This document shows positions 8,384 through 49,627 of a stretch of 64,000 bases of DNA, one piece after another. The DNA is from Sabellastarte sp. h YS-2021. Lineage: Eukaryota; Annelida; Polychaeta; Sabellida; Sabellidae. Under the pieces are notes generated by a model. That model had not been told where the DNA came from. It made no database searches and saw only the letters and a program-made list of their open reading frames with translations. The stretch covers positions 137,146,033-137,210,032 of the forward strand of contig OZ024931.1 in the NCBI GenBank assembly GCA_964017235.1, read 5' to 3'. Each line of letters opens with the position of its first letter. The first letter of the stretch is position 1. Made by a program: the position numbers and the translations under genes.

Positions 8384-8424
8384 ATTGCTTTGTACGAGGG
8401 TGAAATTTTTGGCTTCCCCTTTTC

Positions 8425-10672: not shown

Positions 10673-10774
10673 TATTAGCTGTATCACTGTCCCACTGGTA
10701 GTTCAAGTAAAAAGCAAGTACTCTAGAATGTCTAAAACTTCAGACAACTGGATGGTGTGTTGTATGAGATTCTT

Positions 10775-11416: not shown

Positions 11417-11767
11417 TTCAAAATTTTGTTTAAGTATTTCCTAAGAGTGGATAATAGTTCACTTATTTCAATATGATGTATTCTTGCTAATCTTTTTCGT
11501 TTCCCCTTGAATTTAACAAATTTTTTAAAAATTTTAACTTCTCAAGAAATAGCTCTCTTTTACTCTTTCCTAAAGGTAAACAAAATACATTATAAAAAAT
11601 TTCTGCTATAGCCTGTAAATTTTGATCACTTCCGTTAGCTAGTAAATGTCTGTTTAAAGATAGATTTTTTCAAGCAATAAATTAATGAAATGCCTAGATT
11701 TCAATAGATTTCTAGACATAATGCTCCTCTCTCAAATGATAAAATATGAAATGATCTTTGCCAAATG

Positions 11768-12436: not shown

Positions 12437-12632
12437 TATCTTTACTACCCTGTTTCCAAAATAAACATTCAGCAGCCAAACAGTTGCCAGTATATATACC
12501 CATTCATTGCCTCATGACCAAAGCTCTTATCACAAGACATAGGTGTTATCGAGAGGTAGACGGATTCAATAGTAGATTTTATAAATTTTTTTTTGAATAT
12601 TTTGATATAGGATTTCAAACATCATACCAGAA

Positions 12633-13633: not shown

Positions 13634-14045
13634 GATTAACTATGATTTTCTTAAAAATTCCAGATTTATTTTTTCATATCCAAAAAAAAAGATGCTCACC
13701 CTTTACGTATAAAAACTGTAATGCGATGTCATTTATCACACAAAGGTTAAAGTTGAATTTCTCTGTGTGCTTATATTTTTGTAGCTATTACATGGTACCT
13801 CAATATTGTCCAAGAATTTTTTCTATTTTTTTCCTTGAATAAAAACATTGCGACCTCATCCATTAATATCCGATATCTTTCAATAATATTGATTTTCTTT
13901 GCTTCAGGTAGTATTCCATACATACATTTCCCGAATCTGAGGTTTCTCTCTCCCTCTCTCTCTCTCTTTAACATTATATTATTATTGTTTTATTATGATG
14001 ACTTCAAGGTAAAATGAAAACATTGGAATACTTGTTTTTATTTTT

Positions 14046-14471
14046 TTGATTAAATATCTCATGATGTATGAACTCAGTAGGTTGATAATAATGATAGCGC
14101 TGTGTGTGGGTATATGCTTTGATTCAAATAATTGTTTTAATGTTATATGTGAAAAGGATAATACAAATGGTAGTGCGATTAAAGAATTTCAAGGTGAAAT
14201 GAATCTGAGGAAAAATTTCGGATTTTGTTCGAATAAAAATGCAATCGCGTTGACTTTCAAGTACTGTAAGGAGGAGCAATTTACCGTAACAAAAGATATG
14301 TTAAGGATATATTACCCAAATGTTAGAACAATAGTATGGCAGTGTGTCGGAAAATGTCTCATAGAAGAAAATAAAAAAATAGTAAACTTATATGGATGTG
14401 AAAAAGGTAACCTTTTATTGTTCATTCATATATTTTCTTGTTTTGTTTGTATAGTAATTACAAGGTTCTAG
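14046..14471 (+). CDS. Cargo gene B, ectodomain exon
   Basis: The frame opens with a likely signal peptide (LSRLIIMIALCVGICF, from about residue 12). It continues as a cysteine-rich segment containing CFNVICEKD, a TFKYC motif and YYPNVRTIVWQC. That last motif parallels the leucine-rich LPNLKHLTMMNM segment of cargo gene A. A probable donor GTAACC at about 14406 would end the exon after YGCEK; the final hydrophobic residues of the open frame are then intron read-through. Not recognised as a named family. Probably joined by splicing to 14685-15432, although the phases do not match cleanly in this copy. Confidence 0.42.
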   Translation: MIKYLMMYELSRLIIMIALCVGICFDSNNCFNVICEKDNTNGSAIKEFQGEMNLRKNFGFCSNKNAIALTFKYCKEEQFTVTKDMLRIYYPNVRTIVWQCVGKCLIEENKKIVNLYGCEKGNLLLFIHIFSCFVCIVITRF

Positions 14472-14684
14472 TTTCGAGGATGAGAACTTATATGAAGACA
14501 TTATGATAACTTCATCCCATGAGATCTTTAAAGAAAACCACATTGTATGTAGTATTTGCTGATTAAAATCAGATTATGCAACGTGATATATATAAGAAAA
14601 TGTACATTTATTCATTTTTTTGGGCAAAATTTAAATGAAATATATATTTATTTAAATAAATAAATTTTATTTTCAGTCTAGAAG

Positions 14685-15432
14685 ATGGAGCCTGTGACTG
14701 CTGAACTTAACGATGAGCAAAGTACCAACAAACACACTACCATCTTTGAAAAATCAAAGGATAGACCATATTCATCCAAATCGATGCACCAATTGTTCAG
14801 TCTTTTAGTGATTCAAATTTTGGCTATTTTTATCGGTGCTCTCATAGGATTATTGAGGAAATATGGATGTACTTTGATGGTGAATTTGGTCAGAAGAATT
14901 TCCAACTATGTTCTGGATATAAATAATATGAATGACTACCCATCAGTTCATACTCCAAGTGCAGTAAATGAAATTCTTGATGGAATAAGCACTGAAAGGA
15001 GGTATGGTTCATCCAGCATATCCAGTCTCAGTTGGGATCCAAGGTTTACAACAGAGGCAGAGATTATTTCTCAAAATATTAAAGCTATGAATAATCAGAA
15101 GACCCAAACACCAGATCATTCATCATCCATTCCTAATCAATCAAATGATAGCATCATAGACATTGACCTTTGCTCCTATGTCTCCAATGAAGTTAAACCC
15201 TTCCTTTACAGCCAGGATTCATCCGGATTCAGATATTGATGAAGACATTACAAAAGTTAAATCAATGATTGATTCAGAAAGTATTCACAATTCGAATTCG
15301 AGTTTTACAAGAGGTGATAACAATAACAATATGAATATATCTTCCAGCATAGCACTTTCTGAGGAAGATTCTTTGGAAGAGAATATCATCAGTCAAAGCT
15401 GTACCAGATCAGTGTTAGTGTACAGGAGGTGA
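14685..15432 (+). pseudogene. Cargo gene B, membrane and cytoplasmic exon
   Basis: A pyrimidine tract with TTTTCAG precedes the exon at 14676. The protein has a polar stalk, a membrane span of about 21 residues (LLVIQILAIFIGALIGLL), and then RKYGCTLMVNLVRR. A long Ser/Asn/Asp-rich cytoplasmic tail follows. The frame shifts near 15230, and the acidic, Ser-rich tail continues in another frame to 15432 (SSSIALSEEDSLEEN). A stop codon at 14679-14681 lies just inside the acceptor in the Met frame, so the present copy cannot be spliced in frame by the obvious route. Similar order of domains to gene A suggests a duplicated cargo pair. Function is unknown. Confidence 0.42.
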
Positions 15433-15856
15433 ATACAAACTCCAAAGCACAATATACTTTGTTTAGTGAAAACAATAATAAATACTGTAAGATACTTTAT
15501 TGTATACATATACTATGACTTTATTATATATCATAATTACAAATATGTTACTTGCAAATTTGACAAATGTTGTATGTTCATCAGAGTTAATAGATAAATG
15601 ATAATATGTTATAACACATTAATTGACATGTAAGACATTTGGCATTTGATATTTGTCGTAGAAGAAAGTTACAGAATGTAATTTCTCAGTTTTTCTTTTA
15701 ATAAATATTAGATGCAGAATAGATATACAGATTAATTTAATATTTACTAACATTGTACATATAAATCTTGCACAAAAGATTGTTTTGTTTTTGCAGAAGT
15801 TTCATTTATAGAATATCACTGAATAAACATAAGGTTATAAAAGCTCTGTCTATTAA

Positions 15857-16284
15857 CCCTTTTGCTACCATGTGTGTCGACTAGCAGTCGACATCAATGT
15901 CTATTGCAAGGGACCATGTCTGTCAACCAAGGGTCGACGGCAATAGTATTGATTTCTTCTTTTCCTTAAGTATATTTTTATACGTTTTCTTTGATGTATC
16001 AGTATTAAAACGATATTTTAGGTAGCTTATATGTAAGTAATGCTGTATTTTAAAAAAAATTCACCATTTTTAGCAATTTTAACTGGTTTAGATATTGCCG
16101 TATTTATGGCATATAACTGCATATTGTTTACTTGTGATTATATTTATTTGGGGAATTCCCTGGGGTTTTTCATTAGACATTTCATCAATTCCTAATGAAA
16201 TATGCCGAAAAATACCACAAATTAAGTGTATAAGGTGGTAAGTTAATAATTAAGTGGAATAATGTTCCTTCAGTAGCAAAAGGG
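15857..16284. mobile_element. 428-bp piggyBac-type MITE (TTAA target)
   Basis: The ends are CCCTTTTGCTAC and its inverse GTAGCAAAAGGG, flanked by TTAA at 15853-15856 and 16285-16288. This matches the piggyBac superfamily in both the TTAA duplication and the CCCTTT-type terminus. Just inside the left end is a perfect hairpin, GTCGACT-agc-AGTCGAC (15876-15892). No coding frame is present, so it depends on a transposase elsewhere. Confidence 0.87.
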
Positions 16285-16537
16285 TTAACTGAGACAAACT
16301 ATAACTAATATGAGTTTCAAAGTACGAATCCTATTTCGATATTTTTTTCATATTATTTAAATATTCCACCTTTGTAGACAATATGCCATCAAATTACGAT
16401 TACATAGCAAGATTTATTATCAATCGAAAAAATCAGAATGCACTCCTAGGTATTATCTAATCATTATATTCATTGTGGCCTCATGAATATTAGCTCATTA
16501 ATGTCTGTTTCTATTATTTCATCACATTCAATACATT

Positions 16538-17112
16538 TCATTGGTGAGTTTCTTGGCTTATTTTAAAGGAAGGATGAGCAAATGGTACACAAAAATGCCC
16601 ACATGAACTCATAAAAAGCTGATCATTTAGAAAGGAGGCCTGACAGGAGCAGCACCTGAAGGTGGCAATTCTAGTGTTATAATAATCCTTCCATTCAGCA
16701 CAAATTATACTTTGGGCATCTGTAGGAGGAGATTTTAACATGAAGGCACATTTAAAGGCCTCTGCTAGGTCATTATTAGGCAAAACCAAAACAAGATCAT
16801 TTTCGTAGTCCTTTTTTAGGTACACAACAATTGGTACCCAAACAAATAATGATGTTTTTGAATGTGAGGACATATTAACATTATAAGGTTTAGTGAATAA
16901 AATCTGAATAAGTAATACTCTACAGCATGGACATTTTTTTCTTGTCCTTTCCCTCATCCTTCCATATTCTATGCAATTTTCCAGAGCATTGAGAAAATAA
17001 CATATATGAACATGAGTTTGTGACAACTATATCCTCCCTTTCAAGTCCTTCTTTACACACACAACACTGTGCATATGCTAATTCCTCAACCATATAGCTC
17101 ACAAACTGGGGG
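16538..17112 (-). pseudogene. Cargo gene C, RING-containing 3' exons (degenerate)
   Basis: An acceptor (pyrimidine tract then TATAG, reading minus) near 17125 leads into an exon with CCVCKEGLERED. The central part reads CSYMLFSQC, where a RING-H2/C3HC4 finger would need His/Cys at the second and third ligands. Both are replaced (Tyr and Phe). CPCCRVLL supplies the last ligand pair after a frame change near 16930. Near the C terminus a second zinc-finger-like block reads FRCCSCQASF then SSCGHFC, and a further frameshift spoils its last ligands. RING domains act as E3 ubiquitin ligases. This is probably the 3' end of the BIR gene at 18782-19255. Confidence 0.55.
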
Positions 17113-17389
17113 AATTTGTTCCTATAAAAAGGATAATTATTCTTTAGACATTTTCTTAAGATGATTATTACTTTACATGACTATTATAATGAATTTTTTA
17201 AAAGTTCAGTCATAATTAACCTAATTTCATTTAAGACTGGATTGATTCATGAGAGCTAACATTGAGTAAGTTTCTTACACTTTTCAATGGTTGCAAATAT
17301 ATTTTTGTTTAACTATTCAAACTCATATTAGTGACAGGAAAACCTTAGGATATTTAAAAATAAATATAATTGAGTACTTACACTATGTA

Positions 17390-18598
17390 GATTGGTAAAA
17401 CATCATTGAGAAGTATCAGCATCATCCCCTCACAAAACGATCCTTCTTCAACCAAGGTTACTAAATTCAACAATGTGGCTGTAGTTGAAACTATAAGCTT
17501 GGGATAGTAAACCAAGAATTTCCTCCCAAGAAAAGCGTTGATAAAAGCATCCATTGTTTTATAATCCTAATGCACTTTTTGAGTTTTTTTTAAAAAGTAT
17601 TTTTTCTCATTAAAGAAATACGATATTAAAGCATGTAAAGGTAACTGATTTTATAGAATCTTCTACGTATTAAATATAGGGCAAACAATGTGCAATATGT
17701 TATGATTATTCTGCTAGATTGCTAAACTACCTTACATATTTCCATTAATTTAATTGAATCTAGGACACTAGTAAGGGTTGATATCTGTTATTTTATATTT
17801 TTAAAGTGGTATTACTATATCTACCTGGCCTAAAGCTGGCATATCCATGCTGATACATTCTTCACATTTAGATAAATCATGATTAGGGTTATCTTTATCT
17901 AAAAGGCAGGAGGTAGCGGTGTAAATCTCTTGATGAGTTGAAAAATTTTTGTGAAAAACTCTCAGTAATTCAGTCCACTCTGGTAATTTGAAAGAAATTC
18001 TCTTTTGAGTGGGAAAATTTTTTCCACTCACTGATTTTTCCCAACATTCTTATAAGAACTGTTACAGGATATGTGGAAACCTGTTCCAATGTGGTGTCTA
18101 ATATTAATATCTTTTAATAATGATGTAGGATAACTAGCATTTTATAAATATTTAAATGTACACCCTCATTTATGACCTTTCCATTTGCAAATTCTTTAAT
18201 ATAAATATCCGTAATAAAACTTTATTTCAACACAATATTACATATTTACATATTTTTGTCCGCCTTTTGCTTGCAACCTCACCTACAGCCTGTTGAGGAA
18301 CACTAGTCTCCTGGTTTGAGATTGGGTTTCCTGATGGCTGATTCGACATTGATGAACTCGTAGCAGTATAGGTAGTAGGTGAAGTAGAAAACTGTGCAGT
18401 AGAGGAGTGTTCAACAGCTTTCAGTATAGATGACTGTGAGGAGTTGGATGCTGTGGTAGACATCGGAACTGCAAGTATTTGTGTGACATTAGGCCTCTTC
18501 AACCTTGTAGATGATGTTGCCTCATTCTTGGTTAAACTTGATGTTGTTACTGATGTTACTTGAATTTTGTTATTAAGATAAGCTTCTGCCATTTTCAA
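17390..18598 (-). CDS. Cargo gene C, middle exons (linker of BIR/RING gene)
   Basis: Three minus-strand exon candidates fit between the BIR and RING parts. The first (18598-18227) encodes a Ser/Thr-rich linker (VTSVTTSSLTKNEATSST) and ends near a GTAAAT donor. The second (about 18045-17811) encodes KLPEWTELLRVFHKNF and DLSKCEECISM and ends at a GTAGAT donor. The third (about 17576-17391) encodes a hydrophobic alpha/beta-like segment (LVTLVEEGSFCEGMMLILL) and ends at an excellent GTAAGT donor. A long unstructured linker between BIR and RING is normal for inhibitor-of-apoptosis proteins. The exon joins are inferred, not demonstrated. Confidence 0.4.
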
Positions 18599-18781
18599 AA
18601 TGTGGTTCTGTGTCCAATTACTCAGAGTAGTTTCTTTTGATGATTTAATGAATGATTAATAAGAATTATGAGTTTATATTGAGTAAAATTGAGCCAGATT
18701 TCATGCTTTGATGTGACACTACAATATGTTAAATTATATTTATATTATATCACATTCTTATTATATTATAGGTCAATCTTT

Positions 18782-19255
18782 TCACTGCAGCATTGGAAAA
18801 AGCATTAAAATAAAGTCACAATATGGTGAATGCCTCTTATGTTCATCTATTGCTAAATAGAAGGCTTCCCATTCATTTAAACATATATTACACTGAGGAC
18901 ATATGACCTTGTCTCCTTCTCCAGCACAAAAGAATCCTACCCTGGCTAGTTGATCGCTTCTAACAGGATGAGCTTTTGGCCATAATTTAAATGTTGCATA
19001 TCTATCATCATACTTCCTATATGAATTAGCATCTATTGATTTATGTAGAGGTCTTTGTAGATTAGACCTTTGGGAGGATTGGTGAGGCTTATCTGTAGAT
19101 AATGCGAAACCAGCTTGATAAGGATGAGCATTACCATCCTTTGGTCTCGAAAATCCACTTAATGATATCCCATATGATGGCTTTGAGGCAGCAGTACATG
19201 TTCTTTCATTAGAATCAGTATATTCTTTCTTATCAGTACAATTGTTGGCAAACAT
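18782..19255 (-). CDS. Cargo gene C, BIR exon (inhibitor-of-apoptosis-like)
   Basis: The exon starts at Met with about 80 polar residues and then encodes a BIR zinc domain: RYATFKLWPK, LARVGFFCAGEGDKVICPQC, and EHKRHSPYCDF. The ligand pattern C-x2-C then H-x6-C is complete, and the Trp of the WPK and LNEW positions is present. BIR domains bind caspases or IAP-binding motifs and block apoptosis. Large DNA viruses of invertebrates carry such genes. A GTGAAA donor after the codons for LFPMLQ would end the exon near 18786. It lies entirely within the Polinton terminal repeats, so it is element cargo rather than a flanking host gene. Which spliced form was made is not visible. Confidence 0.78.
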   Translation of the reverse strand: MFANNCTDKKEYTDSNERTCTAASKPSYGISLSGFSRPKDGNAHPYQAGFALSTDKPHQSSQRSNLQRPLHKSIDANSYRKYDDRYATFKLWPKAHPVRSDQLARVGFFCAGEGDKVICPQCNICLNEWEAFYLAIDEHKRHSPYCDFILMLFPMLQ

Positions 19256-19267
19256 TGTTATTATATA

Positions 19268-19335
19268 ATTGGATGAATGGTATCAGTGAGGCTTGCTTGT
19301 GATTGGATGAATGGTATCAGTGAGGCTTGCTTGTG
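19268..19335. repeat. 34-bp tandem duplication upstream of the BIR gene
   Basis: ATTGGATGAATGGTATCAGT and the 14 bases after it (ending TGCTTGTG) occur twice in succession with period 34 and no mismatch. The repeat lies just 5' of the BIR start on its strand, so it could touch its promoter, but nothing else supports that. The stretch 19336-20610 up to the right terminal repeat has no gene; it includes a 19-bp tandem pair near 20511-20550. Confidence 0.8.
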
Positions 19336-20610
19336 ATTTTTTTAGCTATTTGGAGGTTAATTGTTTGCTGAAACATTAATTCCATTTCTAGTTGATTAAT
19401 TATACATGTTTGGACATGTTTATGATACATTGATTGGGTGTAAATAATTTTGTGTAATTTTTTACATGTCCAGACCTGTTTTGTGAGATAACATAAAAAA
19501 TTAAGTGATAATAACATAAAATTGTCATTTATGTGTGATTTAATATGGTGGAGAAAAGATTAGTTCACAGAGTACAAAAAGGTACATATTCAGTGTAGCC
19601 TTTGTACACATATGTTCAACATATGGGTGAAAAAGACACGTGGAGTTGATCATATGATTCTGTTGATTTAAATATTTCAGTTACATTAAATTATTTATTT
19701 AATAGGGACTTATGGTAACCCTCATGTGAGGTGAAGTAAACATATGGAGCCTCCATGTATAGATTAGTTTACATTAAGTAGGATGACTTTTTGTGTGGAC
19801 TAATTTAAGGCATATGTATCAATATCCTTATTCTGTCTATGAACTTATACATGTGGGCAGCATACTTGAGGTAGAGACTTTGAAGTGTTTCATTATACTT
19901 AAGATGCAACTAGTTCATATTCTATTAGGTAAGCACTTTAGATATCTATTAACAAGTAAATATACTGTGATATGTAAGCATATATAGAGATGAAACGTGG
20001 ACTAGTGCATTATAAGTTGAACATATATATTTAACTATTCCTACAGTTAATTATTCTCATAATTGACAATTTAAAAAGTTGGCTATTTTGAAGACTATAT
20101 TTTATGACTATTTGATGATAACATTTTGAAAAATGTAAGCTATTTCTTCATTTTATAAACCATTCACTATCTTTATAATAATATTTGCATTAGTTTGGTG
20201 TAGTTTACAGTTATTCTATGGCACGACCTTATCAAAGGAATTAGGTACATTAGTCCGCCCATATGTATGGTGTTTTGATCTACATTGATCTTAGTTGAGA
20301 GCTAGTGTATATGTAATTTAATCTGTGCCAGTTTAACAAGGTCTTTGTTATAGACCATATGAATGTGAGCCTTATAATCCATGTGTAGGCATACTCTATG
20401 CTACTTTATCAATGAGAGACATTAGCTGTAGACCATATGCAAGCCTTAGAATATGCTAGTTCACGTGTCAGATCTAGGCATACATATGTTTACAATATCA
20501 TTGTATATTTACACATACAAATGTATACTACACATACAAATGTATACTACTTTACATATGCTAGATTTTATGTGACCTCACTGCTACAGCTTATTTGGTC
20601 CATATGGAGG

Positions 20611-20705
20611 TGATTGGGATCTGCATTGACCTTAGTTGAGAGACTACATTAAAGATCAATTCCCTATCACATCCGTGGAGTGATTCCACTACATCTATTA
20701 CTACT
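20611..20705 (-). repeat. Polinton right terminal inverted repeat
   Basis: It ends CTATTACTACT and is the inverse of 1104-1198 at 90 of 95 positions. A partial extra copy of its inner part (GATCTACATTGATCTTAG) lies at 20278-20302, so the right subterminal region contains an internal repeat. The target duplication GTTCTC follows at 20706-20711. Confidence 0.92.
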
Positions 20706-30868: not shown

Positions 30869-32682
30869 CTACGTTAGTACCACTGCAGGCTCATCATTAC
30901 TTTGTTTAGTAACTGTTTGTACTCTTGTAAACCAAACTTTGCACAGCACAATCACTGACACTATCAAAATTGTAATTATCACTGCACACAATACACCCAG
31001 GGATACACTGAAGTGTGTCTTACTGGTGTAATTAGCCCCTAGATTAACAGAGTGGCCTTGCTGAGAAGCTGTTTGCAATAGAGCTTTTATCTTATCCAAA
31101 TATTTAGCTGGTTTTAAACTGTCATTGTACATCTGAGGCTCAGGGATTAGATCTAGGAACTGTCAGACTTGAAAAGGAATTTACTCATTTCAATTTCACC
31201 CTCAAAATGGGTCTTAGCAGAAGTATTTGTTTTGCCTTCCTGGGACAAGCGAGTGGCAATCATAAAATATTTTGACAAAATATGACATCCCTGTTCCTGT
31301 TTGAAAATTTGAACTCCCTGATGTATTTGTACTTTGGTAACTTTTTCCTGACAAGTGGTCACTATGCAAAATGGAACAGAAGTGGACAAAAGCTAATTAT
31401 TTTCAAAAAGATGCTTCTCAGTGTAAGCCTTTGCACACTTTTCCTTTATCCTTATTTCATCTTTCAATATAAAGCTATGACACATGTTGGTAAATTTAAC
31501 ACAAAATAAATAGGAACTTTCAATTTACAGATAATTTCTGAACTACACCTTTCAAAATCTGAGATGAGAGCAAATTGATTTTTATCTGATGAGACTGCAA
31601 TAAGATCTGATTCTGTGTGATATTTAACTGACATTGAACTCTGAACTTCCGGTTCCGGCACTGAGACAAGCTTATACACATTATAGCGTGATTCATGATC
31701 CACAAGTGGTAGCACCATTACAATGTGAAATGAATTTCCATTTGGAATAATTAATGGATGTAGAAATCTATAATAATGCAAAAGTGACTTTCCTGACATA
31801 GGATATGGCAGTGCCATGCAACCATCTAACCGTTTCTTAATGTTACCCAGCAAAGATGCCAACTCTGATGGTTTTATCATACTCAGTGACAAATCCCCAT
31901 TAGCTGTCTCACTGATCTGATGTAGTAAAGCACTAAGTGACCTCCTAGTTCCTAGTATTGCTCTAGACATTATGTGAAACAGCTCTCTCATTTGTATGTT
32001 GAGTTCAACATAGTCCAGCTCTGTTCTTAATTTTTCATTCTCTACATGCACTAACTGAACTCTATCTTCAAGCATATTTGTGAAATTGACAAGGAAATTA
32101 ATTGCCTCCCTATTTTCTTTTATTTGTGAGTGAGTTTTATCCACCCGTGATATACTCTCTGACACAACATGAATAGTTTTGGCTTGAGAGTCCCTAAGTG
32201 ATGACAGTGCTAATCTCAGTTGTTTCAAATTTCCCTCTGTAGCTGTGTCCAATAGGTAGGACAATGCAGTACCAACAAATGGCAGAACTGGTCTGCTAGG
32301 GCGATTTTTAGATGCCTCCGTTAACTCTTTTATGGCCTGTATCATATCACTGACATGTACATATTGAGCCTTTAAGTAGTTCTCTTCTCATTGAATGGCC
32401 AATAACATGTTATTTCTCAATCTCATCACATGAGAGTTTTCCTTGTTTTGGTGAGGGGCATTGGAGGACAGCACTTTCAAACAGTCGCTTCAGATTAATT
32501 TGGAACTGTCCCAACAACTCACGGGCATGTCCCACATGCTGGTTGAATGGTTCTACGTTGATTGTATTAGTCACCAACCAACTACTATATTCCGAATAAA
32601 TTTCCCCCTGATGGATAAAGTATGGGTTGCATGTGACTGCCTGAATAATGGAGCACAACAGCAGTACTTCCAACTTCTTCAT
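30869..32682 (-). pseudogene. Envelope fusion protein, baculovirus-F / errantivirus Env-like (broken)
   Basis: The order is a signal peptide (LEVLLLCSIIQAVTC) at 32682, an ectodomain, a basic candidate protease-cleavage site (KNRPSRP) and a glycine-containing fusion-peptide-like run (LPFVGTALSYLLDTATEGN). A long heptad-rich region and a Cys-containing distal part follow. It ends in a C-terminal membrane span (GVLCAVIITILIVSVIVL) with a short tail. That is the layout of Baculo_F-type class I fusion proteins, also captured by insect and mollusc LTR elements. The gene is split at about 32410, 31464 and 31150 by stops or frameshifts, so no functional protein is made. About 400 bp upstream (32930-33345, minus) is a readable polar stretch that could be the end of a pol gene. 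Confidence 0.72.
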
Positions 32683-33345: not shown

Positions 33346-33840
33346 CTCTCAAGAATAAACGTGTAATATATTCCTTTATAATGTGAAACATATACCCTTG
33401 GAACATAAAAAAAGAATTGTACTGCTGTAATATGGCCACATAAAGGAATTTCATCCTGTTAAAATCTTCTAAGGCTGTTAATTCTGCTTTGATTACAATA
33501 CACACACATGTTAAATAACACTTTACTGTTTTAGTGAAAGGTGAACTGAATACTTTTCACAGTTGTTTTCATTCACACTTTTATTTCTGTTTGTAAAATT
33601 TATGGAAAATCCAAAAACTGAAAAGATCTGATTCATTCTACATTTTTTTCCGTTTACTGTAATTTGACAAGGGATATACACATTCAGAGGTAAGAGACAA
33701 GACATACAGTCGGTATGTACAGTTCAGTGCAACTTAGCCTGGTCCAACTCTACTTTTGTACATCTATTTTTATTGGCATGAAATTATAAGTATTTTTGTT
33801 TATACCTTTAGAAATATGTGTTACTTATATGACATATATT
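33346..33840. other. AT-rich spacer, no gene seen
   Basis: Short unrelated frames only. It separates the envelope remnant from the outer inverted-repeat transposon. Confidence 0.5.
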
Positions 33841-33947
33841 TATATATGTTACAGTCAATCTGTGAAACCAGTCATTATGCGTAATGACTGAAACTTTCAG
33901 TCATTTCGTGTAATGACTGAAATGGCCAGTCATTATGTGTAATGGCT
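33841..33947 (+). repeat. Outer transposon left inverted repeat
   Basis: Contains GTTACAGTCAATCTGTGAAA and three nested CAGTCATT...AATGACTG palindromes. A further related unit continues to about 33980 and has no partner on the right. Confidence 0.85.
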
Positions 33948-34128
33948 AAAATTTTCAGTCATTTCACGTAATGACTGAAATCTATGGTTCATTTTTACAC
34001 AGATTGCCTGAAAAGATTTCAATCAATCCGTGTAATTGATTTAGAGTTGTTTTTCATCAAAACCTTTGTATTATTCAAACCCTTTGTGCATTGTTCCCCT
34101 GAACATTTATGTGTTTGAGAACTTTATT

Positions 34129-35975
34129 AGTAGTAAGGGGGATACTATAGTCACGCAAGGGAGCATTATAGTCACACAATCTACGTGGTCCCCCCCTGTG
34201 GGGGGCTGTATAGATTTTGTGACCAGTCACCAGAGTTCAAATAACGGACCATCTGTGTGAGGGGGGATATGGGGAGGGGAGGTTTGGGGTTTACTTAATG
34301 CAGGGGGGTGTTAATTATCTGTGAAGATTAGGTTGAAATGAAATACATTTATTGGAATGAAGTACATAAAATATTCATAGCATCACCAACAACTACACAA
34401 CATTTAAAGCAACATAAAGGCAAATAAAATCATGCAAACAGCTAAAGGTAAAATAAAACCAGTAAACATCCAAGGACCTTTAAAAACTAGTAAACAACTT
34501 TGGAATATTTAAGCATCTACATATTTATAGCAACAAATAAGGGACATTTACAGCTATGTACAGATCTATCATAACACTAAAGAAATGAAACACAATTAGG
34601 ACATACAAATTTCTAAGGTATAACTATACAACATTTAAAGCTACATTAAAAAAAATCATGCAAACAGCTAAAGGCAAATTAAAACCAGCAAACATCCAAG
34701 GACCTTTAAAAACTAGTAAACAACTTTGGGATATTTAATCATCTACACATTCATAGCAACAAATAAGGGACATTTAAAACTACATACAAAATTTATCACA
34801 GCACTGAAGAAAAAATATGAAACATGCAAAAAATTAAGACATTTAAACCCCTAAAAATTTGTAAGGACATTTAAAAACACGTAACTTGGAATTATTTAAG
34901 CATCTACAAATTCAAAGCAACAAGAAAATTAAAAATACACACACATGTAATAGTCAAGCTTTTTTCCCACAATTTTTTTCCTTTAAAAAGCCAGTTAAAG
35001 GGACCCAGTTTCACATTGGCACAGTAGCCTTTCATTAGACGTCACGTATAATTCAGACCCATCCCCTTTAATTTAAACCAAACCCCTGTACATTATTACC
35101 TTTATTTTAAAGTAATTACCTTATTTTAAAGTTTTTTTCAATGTCTGTTATTTAATTATACTGGAATAAGTAAGAATCCCTCAAATATATCAAAGTCCAA
35201 AAATTGAAATATAATATACTAGAGTTCAATGGAAAGGCTATTATCCCCCCATTGACAAAGCTATTCACACAGCTGGTGTCATTCATTTGTAAAAAGGTCT
35301 TGTTGAGGAATTATAATGTATAAGTTTCAAATGCTCATAACTTTTTGAGGAATAGTCCGATTTTAAAAATTCAAAAAGGACCTCGATCCATATCTCCAGA
35401 CGAAAATTTTGATACCTAATACTATAACCCCGAATAATAAATGCACAATATTTTGAAATCCAGCACATTAAAAAAAGTCCCACTGTAAAAGCCTATTATC
35501 ACCTATTGACAATGCCATTCGCACAGCTGGTGTCTTTAATCATTAAAAAGGTCTTTTTAAGGAATTATAATGTAGAATTTTCAAATACTCATAACTTTTT
35601 GAGGAATAGTCCAATTTTAAAAATTAAAAAAGCGTCTTAATCAGTGAGTCCAGACGAACGTGTTGATATGAAACATGCTCCTGTTAAACCATTGATAAAA
35701 ATTTGAAAAAAATATTCATTAATTATGTTAAGAGACACATAATTTGCATTTTTCAAACGGCCCCAACTCTGCGACGGATAGTCGGATTTTAAAAATTCGA
35801 AAAGCATCTTAATCAGTGAGTCCCGGCGAATGTTTTGATATCAAACTTAACCTTATATGAGAAATAACGGGAAATTTTAACTATGCCAAAACGTTCATTA
35901 TAATATAACACAATGTGCGCACATTTAACGCATGTGACCCTCACAATCCACATATGTAACACATGTAACACAATG
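34129..35975 (+). repeat. Left inverted arm of the ATPase element
   Basis: It pairs with 38845-40283 over nearly its whole length. It is longer because it contains extra tandem copies. A unit of about 240 bp beginning near 34390 (ACAACATTTAAAGC) is repeated at about 34630. A unit with CACAGCTGGTGTC and GAGGAATAGTCC recurs at about 35250 and 35500. The right arm has one copy of each. Confidence 0.82.
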
Positions 35976-36274
35976 TGCACACATGTGATACAATCAATCT
36001 TATACTACGCACCTTGGATTTGTTTGTTTCTACAGTCTTTTATAAACTTTTCAAATATTTTTGAGCCACCTAGCCACTTGCTTTCATTAAGGTACAAAAG
36101 TTAAGGCTATGGTTTGGCTAAGGCCTTTTACAAATCTGGGTATTTAGGTCAAATACATTGTTTGTTGGGTAATAAATTTAACTAAAAATCCTATGCATCG
36201 AGTGGGCAAATTTATAAAAGATGGCAGTTACATTTAGATGAAGACGTTTTATTCCTAGACACTGAAGAGTCACC

Positions 36275-37996
36275 ATGAATAAAACATGCGAAAAGTGCTC
36301 AAAGGGTTTTGCTACACCTTATTCATTCAGGAGACATATGTTTACACAGCACAAAAGGGGTGCAATGTCGGGTTGGAATGAGAAAAGAATTGTAAATCCA
36401 TCGTCGGCTGATCTTGCACACGCAATGCCAAATGTTACACGCGTCTCAAATATAAACCCTAATGTGGCACACATAGCACCCGATGTCACACACGTGCCCA
36501 TTGTAACACCCGAGACACCACAAGAAAAGTTTTTATCATCCGAAGCATTACACGGATTGAGACAAATTTATCTTCCGCGATTGAAAGTATCGTCAAAACA
36601 GGAGAATGCCTTTGTGTTTAGGCACCCATTTACAATGTTATTGGCAGGACCGACCTCTTGCGGAAAAACAACCTGGATGAAACATTTACTGCAACAGGCT
36701 GAATCAATGATAACACCTCCTCCTGAAAAAATCTTATGGTTTTACAAAAGATGGCAGCCTGCTTACACTGATTTACAAGAAAATGTTCCTCATATAGAAT
36801 TCGTGCAGGGTATCGAACAGCGGACTCCCGATGGTCAGCCTACCTTGTACATTTACGATGACCTTATGAAAGATACCACAAAAAATGTAGACGTATGCGA
36901 AATGTTTACCGAAGGCTCTCACCATTGTAGCTTGAGCGTCATTTGCTTGCTACAAAATTTGTACCACCATGGCAAAGAAAACAGAACCATAAACTTAAAT
37001 ACGCAATATATCGTACTTTTTAAAAATCCACGCGACCAGCAACAGGTGGCACATTTGGCAAGGCAGATGTACCCGAATAATTCTCAGTCGTTTTTAGATG
37101 CATTTCATTATGCTACCAAGGAGCCCTACGGCTATTTACTAGTCGACCTCAAACAAGATACAGCCGATGAAGACAGGCTTAGGACTAATATTATAAAAGG
37201 GGTTGGAAAGCGTAAGATGCATCACTTAACATCTGACAGTCAGCAGGGAAACAGTGTGAAAAAGAGAGTTGAAGATATATATAAAATGGATAAAAGCCAA
37301 TGGTCTTGCATCGATTGCGGTATTATTTTTGCATCTACAATGGACCTACAGAAACACGTTAAAAGAGGGTGTCTCGAAAATGATGAGCCCCCTATGAAAA
37401 GACTGTGTGATGAAAATACAGATGAACCCGATGAATCTGGATGGGATAACATAGTGCAAAGAGTGTATAGAAAGTACGATGACCAATACTCCGAAAAGGT
37501 TGAATCCTACGAGAAAGAGGGTTATTCTGAAGTAAAATTGAGACAAAAGGCCACAGAAGACTTATTTTGGAAGTATAGAAAGGGTATTATGAAAAGTTAT
37601 GACGATATTTTGACAACTGTGCATCATTTGAAAAGGAGTACGATACACCAAGAAGTGATGGAAGAGATCCAGACCTTAATGAATGAAAAACATTACAGAT
37701 TCATCCAGGCTTTGAAAATAGTTCTTCGTCGAAACTCATCTTTGTTCGATGAACTTATTGACAGTGAAGAAGAAAACGATGATGATAGTACAGATGATGA
37801 ATCCGATTCGCATACAGAGGAAGAAAGCTCTGAAACGGATGGGGAATCCGATTCGCATACAGAGGAAGAAAGCTCTGAAACGGATGGGGAATCCGATCAG
37901 CATGCACAGGATGACAGCTATGAAACGGATGGGGAATCCGATCCGCATGCACAGGATGAAAGCTCTGTAGAAAGTTACAAGACCCCTTACAATTAG
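36275..37996 (+). CDS. Intact packaging ATPase (Polinton A32/FtsK-HerA type) with zinc fingers and acidic repeat tail
   Basis: A 573-codon uninterrupted frame. Residues 1-30 hold a C2H2 finger (CEKCSKGFATPYSFRRHMFTQH with a short remainder). A polar linker follows. The ATPase core begins near residue 115 with the P-loop LLAGPTSCGKTTW (around residue 129), a Walker B YIYDDLM near residue 195, CLLQNLYHHGK near 228 and FKNPRDQQQ near 250. A second finger (CIDCGIIFASTMDLQKHVK) lies near 350. A charged helical region follows, then four copies of a 20-residue acidic unit (ESDSHTEEESSETDG type). All nucleotide-binding residues are intact, unlike the copy at 11768. In Polintons this enzyme packages DNA into capsids; here it is the only large gene of its element. 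Start chosen at the Met before the finger. Confidence 0.9.
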   Translation: MNKTCEKCSKGFATPYSFRRHMFTQHKRGAMSGWNEKRIVNPSSADLAHAMPNVTRVSNINPNVAHIAPDVTHVPIVTPETPQEKFLSSEALHGLRQIYLPRLKVSSKQENAFVFRHPFTMLLAGPTSCGKTTWMKHLLQQAESMITPPPEKILWFYKRWQPAYTDLQENVPHIEFVQGIEQRTPDGQPTLYIYDDLMKDTTKNVDVCEMFTEGSHHCSLSVICLLQNLYHHGKENRTINLNTQYIVLFKNPRDQQQVAHLARQMYPNNSQSFLDAFHYATKEPYGYLLVDLKQDTADEDRLRTNIIKGVGKRKMHHLTSDSQQGNSVKKRVEDIYKMDKSQWSCIDCGIIFASTMDLQKHVKRGCLENDEPPMKRLCDENTDEPDESGWDNIVQRVYRKYDDQYSEKVESYEKEGYSEVKLRQKATEDLFWKYRKGIMKSYDDILTTVHHLKRSTIHQEVMEEIQTLMNEKHYRFIQALKIVLRRNSSLFDELIDSEEENDDDSTDDESDSHTEEESSETDGESDSHTEEESSETDGESDQHAQDDSYETDGESDPHAQDESSVESYKTPYN

Positions 37997-38089
37997 ACAG
38001 TTCCTGCGTCAATTTTATCGAACATCCGAATTTTTAATGAATAAAAAATATAAAAAAATTTTAAAAATTAAATAAATAAAAACAAAATA

Positions 38090-38242
38090 ATGGAGCATGT
38101 AAGAAATAACCCCAGTATCGCAAAGTATACTTATAGGATCGAATACTTGGAAAAAACTGCTGAGCAAGAAGAACTACGCAAATACCAGAGTACCCCATGG
38201 CGGCTTTACACTACGGGGAACCCAGATTCGGTAACAACCTAA
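38090..38242 (+). CDS. 50-aa frame downstream of the ATPase
   Basis: It begins MEHVRNNPSIAKYTYRIEYL and continues with a charged run (EKTAEQEELRKY). Composition is protein-like and the region is the only unique DNA between the ATPase stop and the right arm. A second frame (38197-38295, MAALHYGEPRFGNNLINVRV start) overlaps it in another phase, so one of the two may reflect a frameshift in a once longer gene. Not recognised. Confidence 0.35.
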   Translation: MEHVRNNPSIAKYTYRIEYLEKTAEQEELRKYQSTPWRLYTTGNPDSVTT

Positions 38243-38410
38243 TAAACGTGAGAGTCTTAAAAGACGGTAAAGTCGTAGAATCCTGGCAACAATGAGCCTC
38301 GGTTGGGGTCCCGAGGCGACACCCTCGTCTTTGAGCGAATAATACCTTCCGATTATCAAAAAGAAGGGGGGACCAGGAAACCCTGAGATGGATTACGTTT
38401 GATGAGCCTC

Positions 38411-38935
38411 ATGTGTGATGCACATTATGTTATGTGTGCGGTACAGATTGTGTTACATGTGTTACATGTGCGCACATTGTGCTACACGTGCAGTTTGTGC
38501 AGTGCACATTGTGTTACATGTGCGGTTTGTGTGGGTCACATGCGTTACATGTGCGGTGCACATTGTGTTACATGTGCGGTTTGTGAGGGTGACACGCGTT
38601 ACATGTGCGGTGCACATTGTGTTACATGTGCGGTTTGTGAGGGTCACATGCATTACATGTGCGCACATTGTGTTACATGTGCGGTGCACATTGTGTTACA
38701 TGTGTTACATATGCGGATTGTGAGGGTCACATGCGTTAAATGTGCACACATTGTGTTACACGTGCAGTGCACATTGTGTTACATGTGACACATATGCGGA
38801 TTGTGAGGGTCACATGCGTTAAATGTGCGCACATTGTGTTACATGTGCGGTGGACATTGTGTTACATGTGTTACATATGCAGAATGTGAGGGTCACATGC
38901 GTTAAATGTGCGCACATTGTGTTATATCATAATGA
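38411..38935. repeat. Minisatellite of TGTTACATGTGCG-type units
   Basis: Units of about 55-60 bp containing CACATTGTGTTACATGTGCGG and GGGTCACATGCGTTA are repeated about nine times with variation. A short counterpart (about 90 bp) lies in the left arm at 35909-36000 in inverse orientation, so the array expanded only on the right side. It generates several long but meaningless open frames. Confidence 0.88.
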
Positions 38936-40222
38936 ACGCTTTGGTATAGTTAAAATTTCCCGTTATTTCTCATATAAGGTTAAGTTTGATATCAAAACGT
39001 TCGCCGGGACTCACTGATTAAGATGCTTTTCGAATTTTTAAAATCCGACTATCCCTCGCGGAGTTGGGGCCGTTTGAAAAATGCAAATTATGTGTCTCTT
39101 AACATAATTAATGAATATTTTTTTCAAATTTTTATCGATGGTTTAACAGGAGCGTGTTTCATATCAACACGTTCGTCTGGACTCACTGATTAAGACGCTT
39201 TTTTAATTTTTAAAATCGGACTATTCCTCAAAAAGTTATGAGTATTTGAAAATTCTACATTATAATTCCTTAAAAAGACTTTTTTAATGATTAAAGACAC
39301 CAGCTGTGCGAATGGCATTGTCAATAGGTGATAATAGGCTTTTACAATGGGACTTTTTTTAATGTGCTGGATTTCAAAATATTGTGCATTTATTATTCGG
39401 GGTTATAGTATTAGGTATCAAAATTTTTGTCTGGAGAGGGATTCTTACTTATTCCAGTATTATTAAATAACAGTTATTGAGAAAGCTTTAAAATAAGGTA
39501 ATTACTTAAAAATAAAGGTAATAATGTACAGGGGTTGGTTTAAATTAAAGGGGATGGGTCTGAATTATACGTGACGTCTAATGAAAGGCTACTGTGCCAA
39601 TGTGAAACTGGGTCCCTTTAACTGGCTTTTTAAAGGAAAAAAATTGTGGGAAAAAAGCTTGACTATTACATGTGTGTGTAGTTTTAATTTTCTTGTTGCT
39701 TTGAATTTGTAGATGCTTAAATAATTCCAAGTTACGTGTTTTTAAATGTCCTTACAAATTTTTAGGGGTTTAAATGTCTTAATTTTTTGCATGTTTCATA
39801 TTTTTTCTTCAGTGCTGTGATAAATTTTGTATGTAGTTTTAAATGTCCCTTATTTGTTGCTATGAATGTGTAGATGATTAAATATCCCAAAGTTGTTTAC
39901 TAGTTTTTAAAGGTCCTTGGATGTTTGCTGGTTTTAATTTGCCTTTAGCTGTTTGCATGATTTTATTTAATGTAGCTTTAAATGTTGTATAGTTGTTGGT
40001 GATGCTATGAATATTTTATGTACTTCATTCAATAAATGTATTCCATTTCAACCTCATTTTCACAGATAATTAACACCCCTGGCATTAAGTAAAGTAAACC
40101 CCCCAACTCCCCCCAACTCCCCCCCTCCCAGTGTGACTATAATCCTGCACGATGAATTACATTGACAGGTGGTCCATGTTTCCAACTCTGGGGAGATTAT
40201 AGGGACACTTGTTTTCCCCCTG

Positions 40223-40254
<32 letters not shown>

Positions 40255-40283
40255 AGTGTCCCTATAGTATCCCCCTTACTACT
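38845..40283 (-). repeat. Right inverted arm of the ATPase element
   Basis: It is the inverse of the left arm, sharing for example the TATTTCTCATATAAGGTTAA segment and the GGTCCTTGGATGTTTGC segment in opposite orientation. Near its outer end lies a stem GGGACACTT...AAGTGTCCC (40202-40263) enclosing a 30-base G run at 40224-40253. Confidence 0.82.
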
Positions 40284-40968
40284 TTTATGTGTTTGAGTGT
40301 TTATGTGTTTGAGAACTTTTAAAATAGTTTAATCAAATTAATAACTTGGGAATTCTTACATGCTTTCTGAATTTATATTCAGTATTTTCAAAACTAAACG
40401 ACTCTATTGCCATTTTCAAGAATATTATTAAAATATTGATTGGTGAAAGGAGACTATATTATTATGTTGAAAAAAGACAATCACAACAATATTTTAAGTT
40501 TTTAAAACAAAATTCACCTTTTTGTTATAGAATATACAATCTATGTAAAACATGCAACTTGTAAAGCTTAATATATTTAGTTTGTATTTTTATGAAGACT
40601 AATCCTTCTTTATACTGCAATTTGACTTTTAATGCTTTTATGCTATTAACTAAACACCTAGTTCTATTGTTCAGGTTGTTTAAGGGAAGCTGGAATGCAT
40701 AAAGTCTTTGAAGTGAATCTTGTCCACAGCTACTTGTGTTAATTGCAATACAGCTCTTTTAATGTAAATATATGCTTTAACTGTTAAATACCTCTCCACA
40801 CAGTAGGCCAAGTTATCAAACTTTAAGGTAGAGCTATCTTTAATGTTGTAAGATAACAGAAACAGTTTAATCCATACTCACAATATATTTTAAAGCCTGA
40901 GTAGGCTCATTTCTGAGCTGTAACTCAAGCCTGGGTAACCTTGTGAGTATAAATAATCCCCAAGATAC

Positions 40969-41202: not shown

Positions 41203-41429
41203 GCGGTGATGATCTTCTCACACAACATAATGTAATCTTATACAATATTATGGAGTATTGTGCTTATATGTGTGATAGTATTTTTATTGACCCTTAATTA
41301 GAATAGTGCAGCACATATACAATATAATGTTACTGATATACACCTATTTCAATGTTTTATGGATTTAAATTGTCATTTGTTGTAGATAAAATTTTTTGGT
41401 ATATGTATATTCTTTATCTATCTTAATTC

Positions 41430-41536
41430 AGCCATTATGTGTAATGACTGGCCATTTCAGTCATTACGCGAAATGACTGAAAGTTTCAGTCATTACACGT
41501 AATGACTGGTTTCACAGATTGACTGTAACATATATA
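41430..41536 (-). repeat. Outer transposon right inverted repeat
   Basis: Inverse of 33841-33947, ending GATTGACTGTAAC followed by TATATATA. Its three internal palindromes keep the CAGTCATT/AATGACTG arms while their central bases differ from the left copy. Confidence 0.85.
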
Positions 41537-42129
41537 TATACTTAAGGTCATCTATGACACACTGAACGATATGACATCAGTATCAAATTACATAAATATT
41601 ACCAATGTAACAAAATCTGCTCAAGACATTTGCAAAATAAACATGAACTTGTACCTGTACTTGTAGCTTACAAGTACATGTTGGTGTACAAGTGGCCTTG
41701 CTCAAGGTCTTTATTGTAAATCTCTGAAGTAATAAGTCAAGCATAATATTTTTTCCCAAAATAGACCCATACACTGATCACAGGGTTTTCAGCAATAAGA
41801 GACAAAGAAGACGTGTTTAATATTTCTACAAATATTTGTAAATGACATCTGGTACAATGATAAAGGGATAATATCTCTGCTATCGCTATGAAAACAAATG
41901 AAAACTTGATGTATTATTAAGGTTTGAACTAATAAAGATACCAAACTTAGACCCATGCACTGATCACTACTTCCACAAAAACACTTCATATTCTAGAAAT
42001 ATAAACATGAAGAGACAGTACTTCGCATTTGAAATTGGTAAAAACAGGCTCTTTATTTGATTACTGACTACATATAATATGCCATATATGGTGCACTTTA
42101 TATAGTTTAAGTATTCATTCTGTGTTAAC
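41537..42129. other. Repeat DNA with AGACCCA-x-ACTGATCA motifs, no gene
   Basis: The segments AAAATAGACCCATACACTGA at 41758 and TTAGACCCATGCACTGATCA at 41947 resemble sequence at 46725-46755 and 46925-46945. A dispersed repeat therefore flanks the LTR element on both sides. Confidence 0.55.
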
Positions 42130-46773: not shown

Positions 46774-49627
46774 AAAATAATAATTTTAATATTTGCATAC
46801 ATATTAGGAGATTAATATTTGGCACAGTAATAAAAGGAAAACACAACTATTATATGAGGTATTAACATTAAAATTTTATGAAATACTCTTTGTGTTATTC
46901 AGGTTCAAAGTCAAAAATTCACCAAAATTAGACCCATAAACTGATTCATGTTTCTATGTCATTCATTTCATTGGTTGGTAATTTTTCAAGTCTGAACGAT
47001 CTTCAGTGCAAAGTTCACTCTCTAATATATAAGTGAGTATTGCTTTGTCTTGGTACTAGCTGCATAAAGATTTATCATAAGTCAGTTGTTATTGCATACA
47101 TTGTTTGAACTTGGAAACACCAAACCATGTCTAAGGAGATGGAAACATATACAAGTAAGGGAAAGTAATAAACATAAATGTTGGGGTGCTGCGTATGTAA
47201 TGTAATAGCACACCATATCAGTTTGATGGGTGAAAAATAAAATTGCCTCCAACTGCCTCAAAAAAGTTACAAACTTTTATCATTTCAAAAAATAGTTTTG
47301 TTACCACAACGCACATAATGATGCTACATGCAGCAAATAGGAAATTAGCATTAATATTTCAGCTAATCTGTTACAGATCAAAAGTTGCTGATTGTCCCTT
47401 GTGATAAAACTGTAGTTGCACAAAAGAAAAATGTATGTTTTACCACTATAGAAATGTTCAAGAAAAGAGCTGTTCACTTTTGGAACATTGAAATATTTAA
47501 AACACAATTAAAACATTCATAGATTAATAATACTTAGTATGAAATAAGTATTTTATAAAATAAGGAACTACAGTTGTATCACTATGGACAATGATCAACT
47601 TTTGATCTGTAACAGATTAGCTGAAATATTAATACTGATTCAAAATCACTACATATAATATTTTTATCATTTTATATTTTCCATTTGCTGCATGTAACAT
47701 TATTATGTGCGTTGTGGTAACAAAACCTTTTTTTTGAAATGATGAAAGTTTGTAACTTTTCAAGTGTGAACAACGTTCACTGCACAGTTCACTCCCTAAT
47801 ATATAAGTGAGTATTGCTTTGTCTTGATAGTAGCTGCATAAAGATTTATCATAAGTCAATTGTTATTGCATATATTCTTTGAACTTGGAAACACCAAACC
47901 ATGTCTAAGGAAATGGAAACATATAAAAATAAGGGTAAGTAATAAATATAAATGTTGGGGTGCTGCGTATGTAATGTAATAGCACACCATATCAGTTTGA
48001 TGGGTGAAAAATAAAATTGCCTCAAACTGCCTCAAAAATAGCTACAAACTTTTATCACTTCAAAAAATAGTTTTGTTACCACAATGCACATAATACTATT
48101 ACATGCAGCAAATGGGAAAAATAAAATGATAAAAATATTATATGTAGTGATTTTGAATTACTATTAATATTTCAGCTAATCTGTTACAGATCAAAAGTTG
48201 CTGATTGTCCCTAGTGATACAACTGTACTTGCACTAAAGAAAAATATATGTTTTACCCCTAAAGAAATGTTCAAGAAAAGAGCTGTTCACTTTTGCAACA
48301 TTGAAATATTTAAAACACAATTAAAACATTCATAGATTAATAACACAGTATAAAATAAGTAATTTATACTAAGAAAAATATATGTTTTACCACTAAAGAA
48401 ATGTTCAAGAAAAGAGCTGTTCACTTTTGCAACATTGAAATATTTAAAACACAATTAAAACATTCATAGATTAATAATACTTTGCATCAAATAAGTAATA
48501 TATACTAAGAAAAATATATGTTTTACCACTAAAGAAATGTTCAAGAAAAGAGCTGTTCACTTTTGCAAAGTTGAAATATTTAAAAAACACAATTAAAACA
48601 TTCATAGATTAATAATACTTAGTATTATTAAACTTTGAATGTTTTAATTGTGTTTTACATATCTCAAAAAAATAGTTTTGTTACCACAACGCACATAATA
48701 ATGTTACATGCAGCAAATGGAAAATATAAAATGATAAAAATATTATATGTAGTGATTTTGAATCAGTATTAATATTTCAGCTAATCTGTTACAGATCAAA
48801 AGTTGATCATTGTCCATAGTGATACAACTGTAGTTCCTTATTTTATAAAATACTTATTTCATACTAAGTATTATTAATCTATGAATGTTTTAATTGTGTT
48901 TTAAATATTTCAATGTTCCAAAAGTGAACAGCTCTTTTCTTGAACATTTCTATAGTGGTAAAACATACATTTTTCTTTTGTGCAACTACAGTTTTATCAC
49001 AAGGGACAATCAGCAACTTTTGATCTGTAACAGATTAGCTGAAATATTAATGCTAATTTCCTATTTGCTGCATGTAGCATCATTATGTGCGTTGTGGTAA
49101 CAAAACTATTTTTTGAAATGATAAAAGTTTGTAACTTTTTTGAGGCAGTTGGAGGCAATTTTATTTTTCACCCATCAAACTGATATGGTGTGCTATTACA
49201 TTACATACGCAGCACCCCAACATTTATGTTTATTACTTTCCCTTACTTGCATATGTTTCCATCTCCTTAGACATGGTTTGGTGTTTCCAAGTTCAAACAA
49301 TGTATGCAATAACAACTGACTTATGATAAATCTTTATGCAGCTAGTACCAAGACAAAGCAATACTCGCTTATATATTAGAGAGTGAACTGTGCACTGAAG
49401 ATCGTTCAGACTTGAAAAATTACCAACCAATGAAATGAATGACATAGAAACATGAATCAGTTTATGGGTCTAATTTTGGTGAATTTTGACTTTGAACCTG
49501 AATAACACAAAGAGTATTTCATAAAATTTTAATGTTAATACCTCATATAATAGTTGTGTTTTCCTTTTATTACTGTGCCAAATATTAATCTCCTAATATG
49601 TATGCAAATATTAAAATTATTATTTGG
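46774..49627. repeat. 2.85-kb near-perfect palindrome
   Basis: Arms 46774-47740 and 48661-49627 (967 bp each) are inverted copies with few differences and the same centre of symmetry near 48200; coordinates of paired bases sum to 96401. The 920-bp loop contains a third, direct copy of part of the arm (47762-48070, like 46990-47300) and a short tandem array. It encodes nothing; identical 68-codon frames in both arms (47301-47507 and 48894-49100) are a by-product. Confidence 0.9.
48230..48625. repeat. Three-unit tandem repeat in the palindrome loop
   Basis: A unit of about 130-140 bp beginning AAGAAAAATATATGTTTTAC and including AAGAGCTGTTCACTTTTGCA occurs at about 48237, 48371 and 48509. A related single copy lies in each arm. 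Confidence 0.8.

Follow-up and report, generated by a model that had tools for sequence, protein, structure and literature searches.

A probable Polinton satellite family with its own packaging ATPase in the genome of the annelid Sabellastarte

Within the window, i.e., the whole stretch of 64,000 nucleotides analysed from contig OZ024931.1 of Sabellastarte sp. h YS-2021, positions 34129-40283 are occupied by an element that constitutes a genuine insertion, with inverted arms of 1.45-1.87 kb and one large gene coding for a packaging ATPase. This element is probably one copy of a family of Polinton satellites, borrowing the ends and machinery of Polintons and carrying a packaging motor of its own. 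A first-pass annotation, made from the letters of the window, had described inverted arms of 1.4-1.85 kb and, as the only large gene, an intact packaging ATPase of 573 amino acids (aa); both descriptions were borne out, the arms spanning 34129-35994 and 38833-40283 and the open reading frame (ORF) being free of stops with a Walker A motif reading GPTSCGKT.

The element and its ATPase

The element comprises the following features, given with their positions in the window:

34123..34128, no strand, target-duplication left flank TTTATT
34129..34150, + strand, left terminal inverted repeat tip AGTAGTAAGGGGGATACTATAG, found at 27 sites in the source genome with at most one mismatch
34129..35994, + strand, left inverted arm
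34171..34223, no strand, weak subterminal hairpin-forming stretch of the left tip (DNA fold of 34129-34270: z -1.63, equalled by 13/200 shuffles)
34730..35376, + strand, left-arm homologue (83.9%) of the left end of the C18 Polinton described below
36275..37996, + strand, packaging ATPase, 573 aa, with two C2H2 zinc fingers, a helical domain and an acidic repeat tail
36284..36352, + strand, N-terminal C2H2 finger, residues 4-26
36647..36670, + strand, Walker A, residues 125-132
36845..36862, + strand, LYIYDD, residues 191-196, which we take to be Walker B; DD invariant in the alignment
37307..37372, + strand, second C2H2/C2HC finger (Cys345, Cys348, His361, Cys366)
38040..38385, + strand, stretch directly downstream of the ATPase gene, a homologue (80.3%) of an inner right-end segment of the C18 Polinton
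38833..40283, - strand, right inverted arm
39155..39886, - strand, right-arm homologue (79.8%) of the left end of the C18 Polinton
40190..40275, no strand, subterminal hairpin with a long C/G tract, right tip (z -2.95, equalled by 0/200 shuffles)
40262..40283, - strand, right terminal inverted repeat tip
40284..40289, no strand, target-duplication right flank TTTATG

The 22-bp tips are perfect inverted repeats (0 expected in shuffles), and the arms pair in blocks at 87-97% identity, the parts at 34622-35085 and 35393-35980 being respectively 99% and 97% complementary to the opposite arm. The left arm has additional stretches of ~230 and ~210 bp relative to the right one, and the outermost ~130 bp pair poorly, the tip excepted. 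The flanking 6-mers, identical at 5/6 positions, sit within a run of ~17-bp tandem units. A stretch resembling 34171..34223 was found at the tips of most family copies compared. A special role for the subterminal hairpins was considered and dropped, since only the right tip folds beyond its shuffles, the left one being weak, and the tips of the neighbouring Polinton fold about equally well (z -2.97 and -2.41).

The ATPase scores 27.4 bits against Pox_A32 of Pfam (cut-off 22.8), and its C2H2 motifs, at residues 4-26 and 342-363, flank the ATPase domain on both sides. Its predicted fold has a mean predicted local distance difference test (pLDDT) score of 73.4, with 248 residues at 90 or above and confident ATPase and C-terminal helical parts; the nearest solved structures are virus packaging ATPases, of which B204 of Sulfolobus turreted icosahedral virus is the closest (best E 1e-5). 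Database relatives occur in Mytilus, Pinctada, Mya, Solemya and scallops. As regards the other gene labels, PolB, integrase, BIR and ATPase were named by Pfam, the BIR domain being called on the C18 Polinton's counterpart of the ORF, and the protease label corresponds to a Peptidase_C5 match below the cut-off. The labels "MCP," "mCP," and "PY" are presumed from Polinton gene order; Pfam named none of these ORFs, and a sequence search of the PDB with the MCP-type protein of the L001 Polinton gave no match.

A family sharing its ends with large Polintons

At least 90 ATPase matches are present in the source genome (1.786 Gb, 647 contigs searched), with 76 candidates scored out of 2250, and among the ATPase matches of ~500 or more residues at 88% identity or above, 35/39 are free of stops. 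The family was defined as a set of 21, i.e., the window copy plus the 20 best-scoring ATPase copies. AGTAGTA ends with a perfect 6-bp target duplication are present in 16/21 copies (the window copy, with its 5/6 match, being counted among the 21 and not the 16), so that the further copies with the same termini looked for after the first-pass annotation do form a multicopy family. The copy L027 has the ends and lacks the duplication, and no ends were detected by script in L015, L030, and L033, although L033 has gtaatt flanks left and right when a variant left end is assumed for it. Lengths are 6.2-8.2 kb for the 18 elements whose ends are resolved, and arms reach about 2.7 kb. Domestication as a host gene is ruled out by such dispersed copies with target duplications.

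With the proteins of the L001 and C18 Polintons as queries, neither integrase nor PolB was found within any of the 21 copies, the sole PolB match, at L017, falling outside the element; this supports the non-autonomous status first proposed for the element. No whole capsid-type or protease gene was found within the 21 copies with the same queries. All 20 fetched copies nonetheless retain, upstream of the ATPase gene and on the opposite strand, two stubs, one being the C-terminal ~30-47 residues of an mCP-like ORF and the other the N-terminal 18-29 residues of an MCP-type gene; the window copy has neither. A BIR-type (IAP-like) ORF lies in one arm of 4/21 copies (L015, L017, L019, and L033), with only its final 51 residues retained in L016, and an ORF of 336-337 aa occurs in the same five copies, broken in L015 and L017.

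Among sites bearing the 22-base tip, a head-to-head pair at C18:45857693-45880094 spans 22.4 kb. This C18 Polinton, whose sequence was read as three separate pieces, contains PolB, an ATPase of 255 aa, integrase, an mCP-like ORF and an MCP-type gene, as well as BIR and 336-aa ORFs near its right end. Both arms of L020, L021, and L022 match its leftmost 1.28 kb at 98.2-98.8% identity. The right arm of L033 matches its rightmost 2.2 kb at 98.2%, and the left arm of L033 matches its left end at 95.3%. In every copy of the family (21/21), the sequence directly after the ATPase gene includes a homologue of the inner right end of the C18 Polinton, and one or both arms contain a segment homologous to its left end. 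Both arms are of the left-end type in 16/21 copies, hence the long inverted repeats, the remainder having one left and one right Polinton end.

A degenerate tip pattern matched 268 sites in the source genome versus 1 for its reversed control. From the first 100 of these sites (C1-C4), which gave 43 head-to-head pairs and 14 unpaired sites, two size classes emerged: 24 pairs of 4.7-9.8 kb and 19 pairs of 20.4-22.5 kb, with none of 9.9-20.3 kb. Among the matches listed, a C18-like integrase and an MCP-type gene were each present in 17/19 large versus 1/24 small pairs, the sole small pair with both being the one of 9.8 kb at C3:126002770; conversely, the long ATPase was present in 13/24 small versus 0/19 large pairs. 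Absences in these counts are soft, since only the best candidates are listed. Several tip subtypes, with letters compared at about half of the 100 sites, are common to both classes: ...GGGGGCTATTTAGTC occurs at C1:54756324 (21.4 kb) and L026, and ...GGAGTTAGTATGGTC at C1:22984171 (20.5 kb), L028, and L031.

Three further arrangements were encountered among the Polinton loci of this genome. The 22.0-kb pair at C4:60934585 contains two integrase and two MCP-type matches; L034 (C7:34624600-34634400) is a Polinton of another type forming a near-perfect palindrome, with arms of 4.87 kb at 98.4%; and C8:101522286-101535344 carries four tandem MCP-type genes of equal scores, spaced by exactly 4,010 bp.

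Selection, origin and competing explanations

Against 19 intact copies, a set which leaves out the broken L015, the window ATPase gives ratios of nonsynonymous to synonymous substitution (dN/dS) of 0.15-0.29, with a pooled pN/pS of 0.233; Fisher tests on a simpler substitution count give p values of 1.4e-5 to 5e-3. Of the changes counted by codon column, 31 are silent and 35 replace a residue (ratio 0.275, p 4.8e-7, or p 4.4e-5 with transitions weighted two-fold), and those private to a single copy show the same tendency towards silent changes, with 23 silent versus 24 replacement (ratio 0.33). As such, the sequence comparisons indicate that the ATPase is under purifying selection, and the neutral dN/dS by which the first-pass annotation would have recognised an unselected gene was not observed. 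Since the layout following the gene is common to 21/21 copies, the divergence among them would have arisen after its capture.

The arms behave differently. Between copies, a segment of ~500 bp differs by a median of 11.9%, while the left and right arms of the same copy differ by 0-1.1% in 14 of the 15 copies in which both were found (the window copy is not among the 15), the exception being L018 with 15.9%. Across 1,674 bases of the ATPase gene, L020, L021, and L022 show 3 differences from L026 and L028, with arm segments 15% apart; L016 has every aligned codon in common with L026 and L028, bar 15 codons of length, with arms 12-13% apart. Such near-identical genes between strongly diverged arms show that the arms turn over separately from the gene. 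Protein-primed replication of linear DNA with annealed ends, of the kind known from adenoviruses, could transfer the sequence of one arm to the opposite arm.

The window ATPase is 40.5% identical to that of the C18 Polinton over 200 columns. In a tree of 65 domains (66 supplied, P0127 being dropped without a domain match), 54 long ATPases form one supported group (96/88), which leaves out the seven ATPases from Polinton DNA (C18, L034, L001-L004, and the window Polinton) and the rotifer P0168; three further long ATPases (P0160, P0165, and P0166) are likewise excluded, and the tree contains some long-branched rows. Considered together with the ends, the sequences indicate that the element is a chimera of the ends of one Polinton and the ATPase of another lineage. 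The long ATPase has other contexts as well. In Mya arenaria, 11 gene models fuse it to an integrase, as does one Pinctada model in the reverse order, and five of these Mya/Pinctada models fall inside the long-ATPase group. In the source genome, L041 and L042 each have an integrase immediately upstream of the long ATPase, L042 also having PolB further on, and, by comparison of match lists, the same arrangement occurs at two further sites (C14:88.12M and C4:3.86M). In L039, it is adjoined by an MCP-type gene, an mCP-like ORF and an integrase remnant, and at eight loci, chosen by eye from match lists, it is divergent from an MCP-type gene 1.6-2.3 kb away, which at C7:10.40M is 91% like that of C18. 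Together with the gene stubs, the fusions, L039, L041, L042, and the eight loci rule out an ATPase-only class never joined to other Polinton genes. No relative of the element was found in the viral contigs scanned; five contigs from bacterial metagenome-assembled genomes bear Polinton genes, and their ATPases are without fingers in the frames read.

The likely helpers, judging from their termini, are the elements of 20-22 kb. Since the ends are shared, integrase is present in the large class and not in the satellite copies read, and 6-bp duplications flank both satellites and the neighbouring Polinton, we infer movement in trans: PolB and integrase of a Polinton would replicate and insert satellite copies via the common ends. 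The arms would be copied end to end during replication of the linear DNA, and the ends would be re-acquired from different Polintons by recombination. The ATPase gene would have come from another Polinton lineage and have been joined to the present ends via an ATPase-plus-capsid stage, with which the mCP and MCP-type stubs fit. A selected motor implies a benefit to the element, and the ATPase would be retained for the advantage it gives to the DNA of the element itself, most likely through the loading of satellite DNA into Polinton capsids in competition with the Polinton's own motor, the zinc fingers possibly helping to select the DNA to package. Preferential packaging would be the simplest benefit, and in its full form the proposal is a tentative one. 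The broader scenario, in which an old satellite lineage of animal genomes with its own zinc-finger motor swaps its arms to fit whichever Polinton is active and diverts its capsids, the loci with ATPase and capsid-type genes and the stubs being stages with a larger packaging module, is likewise possible rather than probable.

Several points weigh against this satellite interpretation. Selection was assessed on the copies closest to the window protein, a choice that favours low dN. The C18 Polinton is flanked by GAGGTG and ACAGTG, which do not form a matching target duplication, and its MCP-type gene is split over two frames; other copies of this C18-type gene are open over 433 aa. The arms of the window copy are only 80-84% like the C18 Polinton, and its closest helper lies outside the sequences read; helper content was read from C18 alone, which is outside the 100-site set, and from none of the 19 large pairs. 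Relatives of the ATPase in other species may be part of complete Polintons. Finally, 11/24 small pairs with the same termini have no ATPase among the matches listed, and L038, a derivative of 3.1 kb with matching CAAAAC flanks, has no ATPase match, so that spread may be possible without the ATPase in cis. The ATPase-only content first noted thus stands for the window copy and not for the family, considering these eleven pairs, the BIR-type and 336-337-aa ORFs, and the stubs of 20/21 copies. Both movement in trans and packaging into helper particles are proposed on the basis of sequence.

These elements with no listed ATPase match also favour the best surviving alternative, namely that the small elements are plain deletion derivatives, in which the core of a complete Polinton was lost, the ATPase is a passenger and copies spread only through the retained ends. 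A Polinton with the same ends exists, together with a whole class of that size, and the gene fragments in all 20 fetched copies are a sign of past deletion. The first-pass annotation had held that full-length relatives between the same arms would make the element just a deletion product; such a relative was found in C18:45857693-45880094, but the conclusion does not follow, because the two-finger ATPase differs in lineage from the short one of the C18 Polinton, placed elsewhere in the tree. Considering also the long ATPase in none of the large elements (among the matches listed) and purifying selection among copies of a common satellite layout, plain deletion is unlikely.

Slightly less likely still is a role of the ATPase in transposition, replication or DNA handling instead of capsid filling: the ATPase-integrase models of Mya arenaria and Pinctada and the integrase upstream at L041, L042, C14:88.12M, and C4:3.86M speak for it, whereas the nearest solved folds are virus packaging ATPases and eight loci have the ATPase adjoining a capsid-type gene. 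Equally improbable is a two-part system without parasitism, where the complete Polinton would use the satellite-encoded motor, as termini common to both classes, copies keeping the Polinton right end with its BIR gene and selection on the ATPase would allow, but the C18 Polinton has an ATPase of its own with an uninterrupted frame, a P-loop and one N-terminal C2H2 finger.

Neighbouring elements, known systems and significance

The first-pass annotation had related the termini of the element to those of a complete Polinton 14 kb away. At 1104-20705, the window indeed contains a real Polinton with a terminal inverted repeat (TIR) of ~96 bp at 94.8% and a perfect duplication GTTCTC; the identity with the termini of the satellite, however, ends after the first 8 bp, so that this neighbour is ruled out as helper, that part falling more likely to the 20-22 kb class. 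The common 8-mer says little by itself, since an (AGT)2 end motif has already been described for vertebrate Mavericks (PMC8097293). The neighbouring Polinton is degraded; besides matches to PolB, integrase, ATPase, MCP-type and protease genes, it has a BIR-domain ORF (18782-19282) and, slightly below the cut-off, a NADAR match (6040-6429).

Directly outside the satellite, an inverted pair of 114 bp at 92% lies at 33837-33950 and 41427-41540; an older element with CAGTCATTA...TAATGACTG-type repeats was possibly the insertion target of the satellite. Elsewhere in the window, a minus-strand ORF at 31464-32387 corresponds to a baculovirus F-like envelope protein (PF12259, E 3.5e-10), and a second long inverted repeat at 46775-49625 (966 nt, 99%) has no listed ORF of 120 aa or more.

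With Polintons/Mavericks (endogenous polintoviruses, adintoviruses), the satellite has in common (AGT)2-type ends, TIRs, 6-bp duplications and an FtsK/HerA-type packaging ATPase, but it differs in having no whole PolB, integrase, protease or capsid-type gene, a size of 6-8 kb, the long arms and the two-finger ATPase. Compared with an autonomous Polinton, only the packaging ATPase is present, and from another lineage than that of the Polinton with the same ends. Termini common with a complete Polinton (one read) and 6-bp duplications are those of a non-autonomous Polinton derivative, and a selected gene of its own, not derived from the counterpart in the one helper read, is what characterises a satellite. 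Foldback is a long-inverted-repeat non-autonomous DNA transposon; it and Galileo resemble the satellite in their long inverted arms and in movement in trans as the usual reading, the satellite being distinguished by its selected packaging-motor gene and by arms matching the ends of a virus-like element.

Among phage satellites, the phage-inducible chromosomal islands (PICI), including the Staphylococcus aureus pathogenicity islands (SaPI), redirect capsids (PMC6431247). In the proposed reading only, PICI/SaPI and P4 are alike in being small helper-dependent elements with their own packaging gene, whereas the present satellite differs from PICI by its animal chromosome, its Polinton helper and an ATPase instead of a small terminase, the likeness being one of function and not of compared genes. 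PICI genes comprise integrase, small terminase and capsid-size genes, and P4 is also a phage satellite. Virophages are hyperparasites retaining capsid genes, and defective-interfering linear DNA genomes have ends duplicated in protein-primed replication; hyperparasitism and end duplication, respectively, recall the satellite, which differs by the lack of a whole capsid gene, kept by virophages, and by a foreign selected gene, unusual in defective genomes. In agreement with the lack of a described counterpart claimed at the outset, no ATPase-only Polinton satellite appears in the excerpts of the open-access literature matches listed, the nearest passage reporting that some adintoviruses carry zinc-finger genes (PMC11071296).

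According to PMC8097293, Maverick/Polinton particles had so far gone unobserved. In this respect, a packaging motor that is the only whole conserved gene, selected apart from any whole capsid gene, would be indirect genomic evidence that Polintons do package DNA and that this packaging is worth parasitising. The satellite family would also offer a natural experiment on the terminal sequences recognised by Polinton proteins, and satellite DNA in particles would be the direct test.

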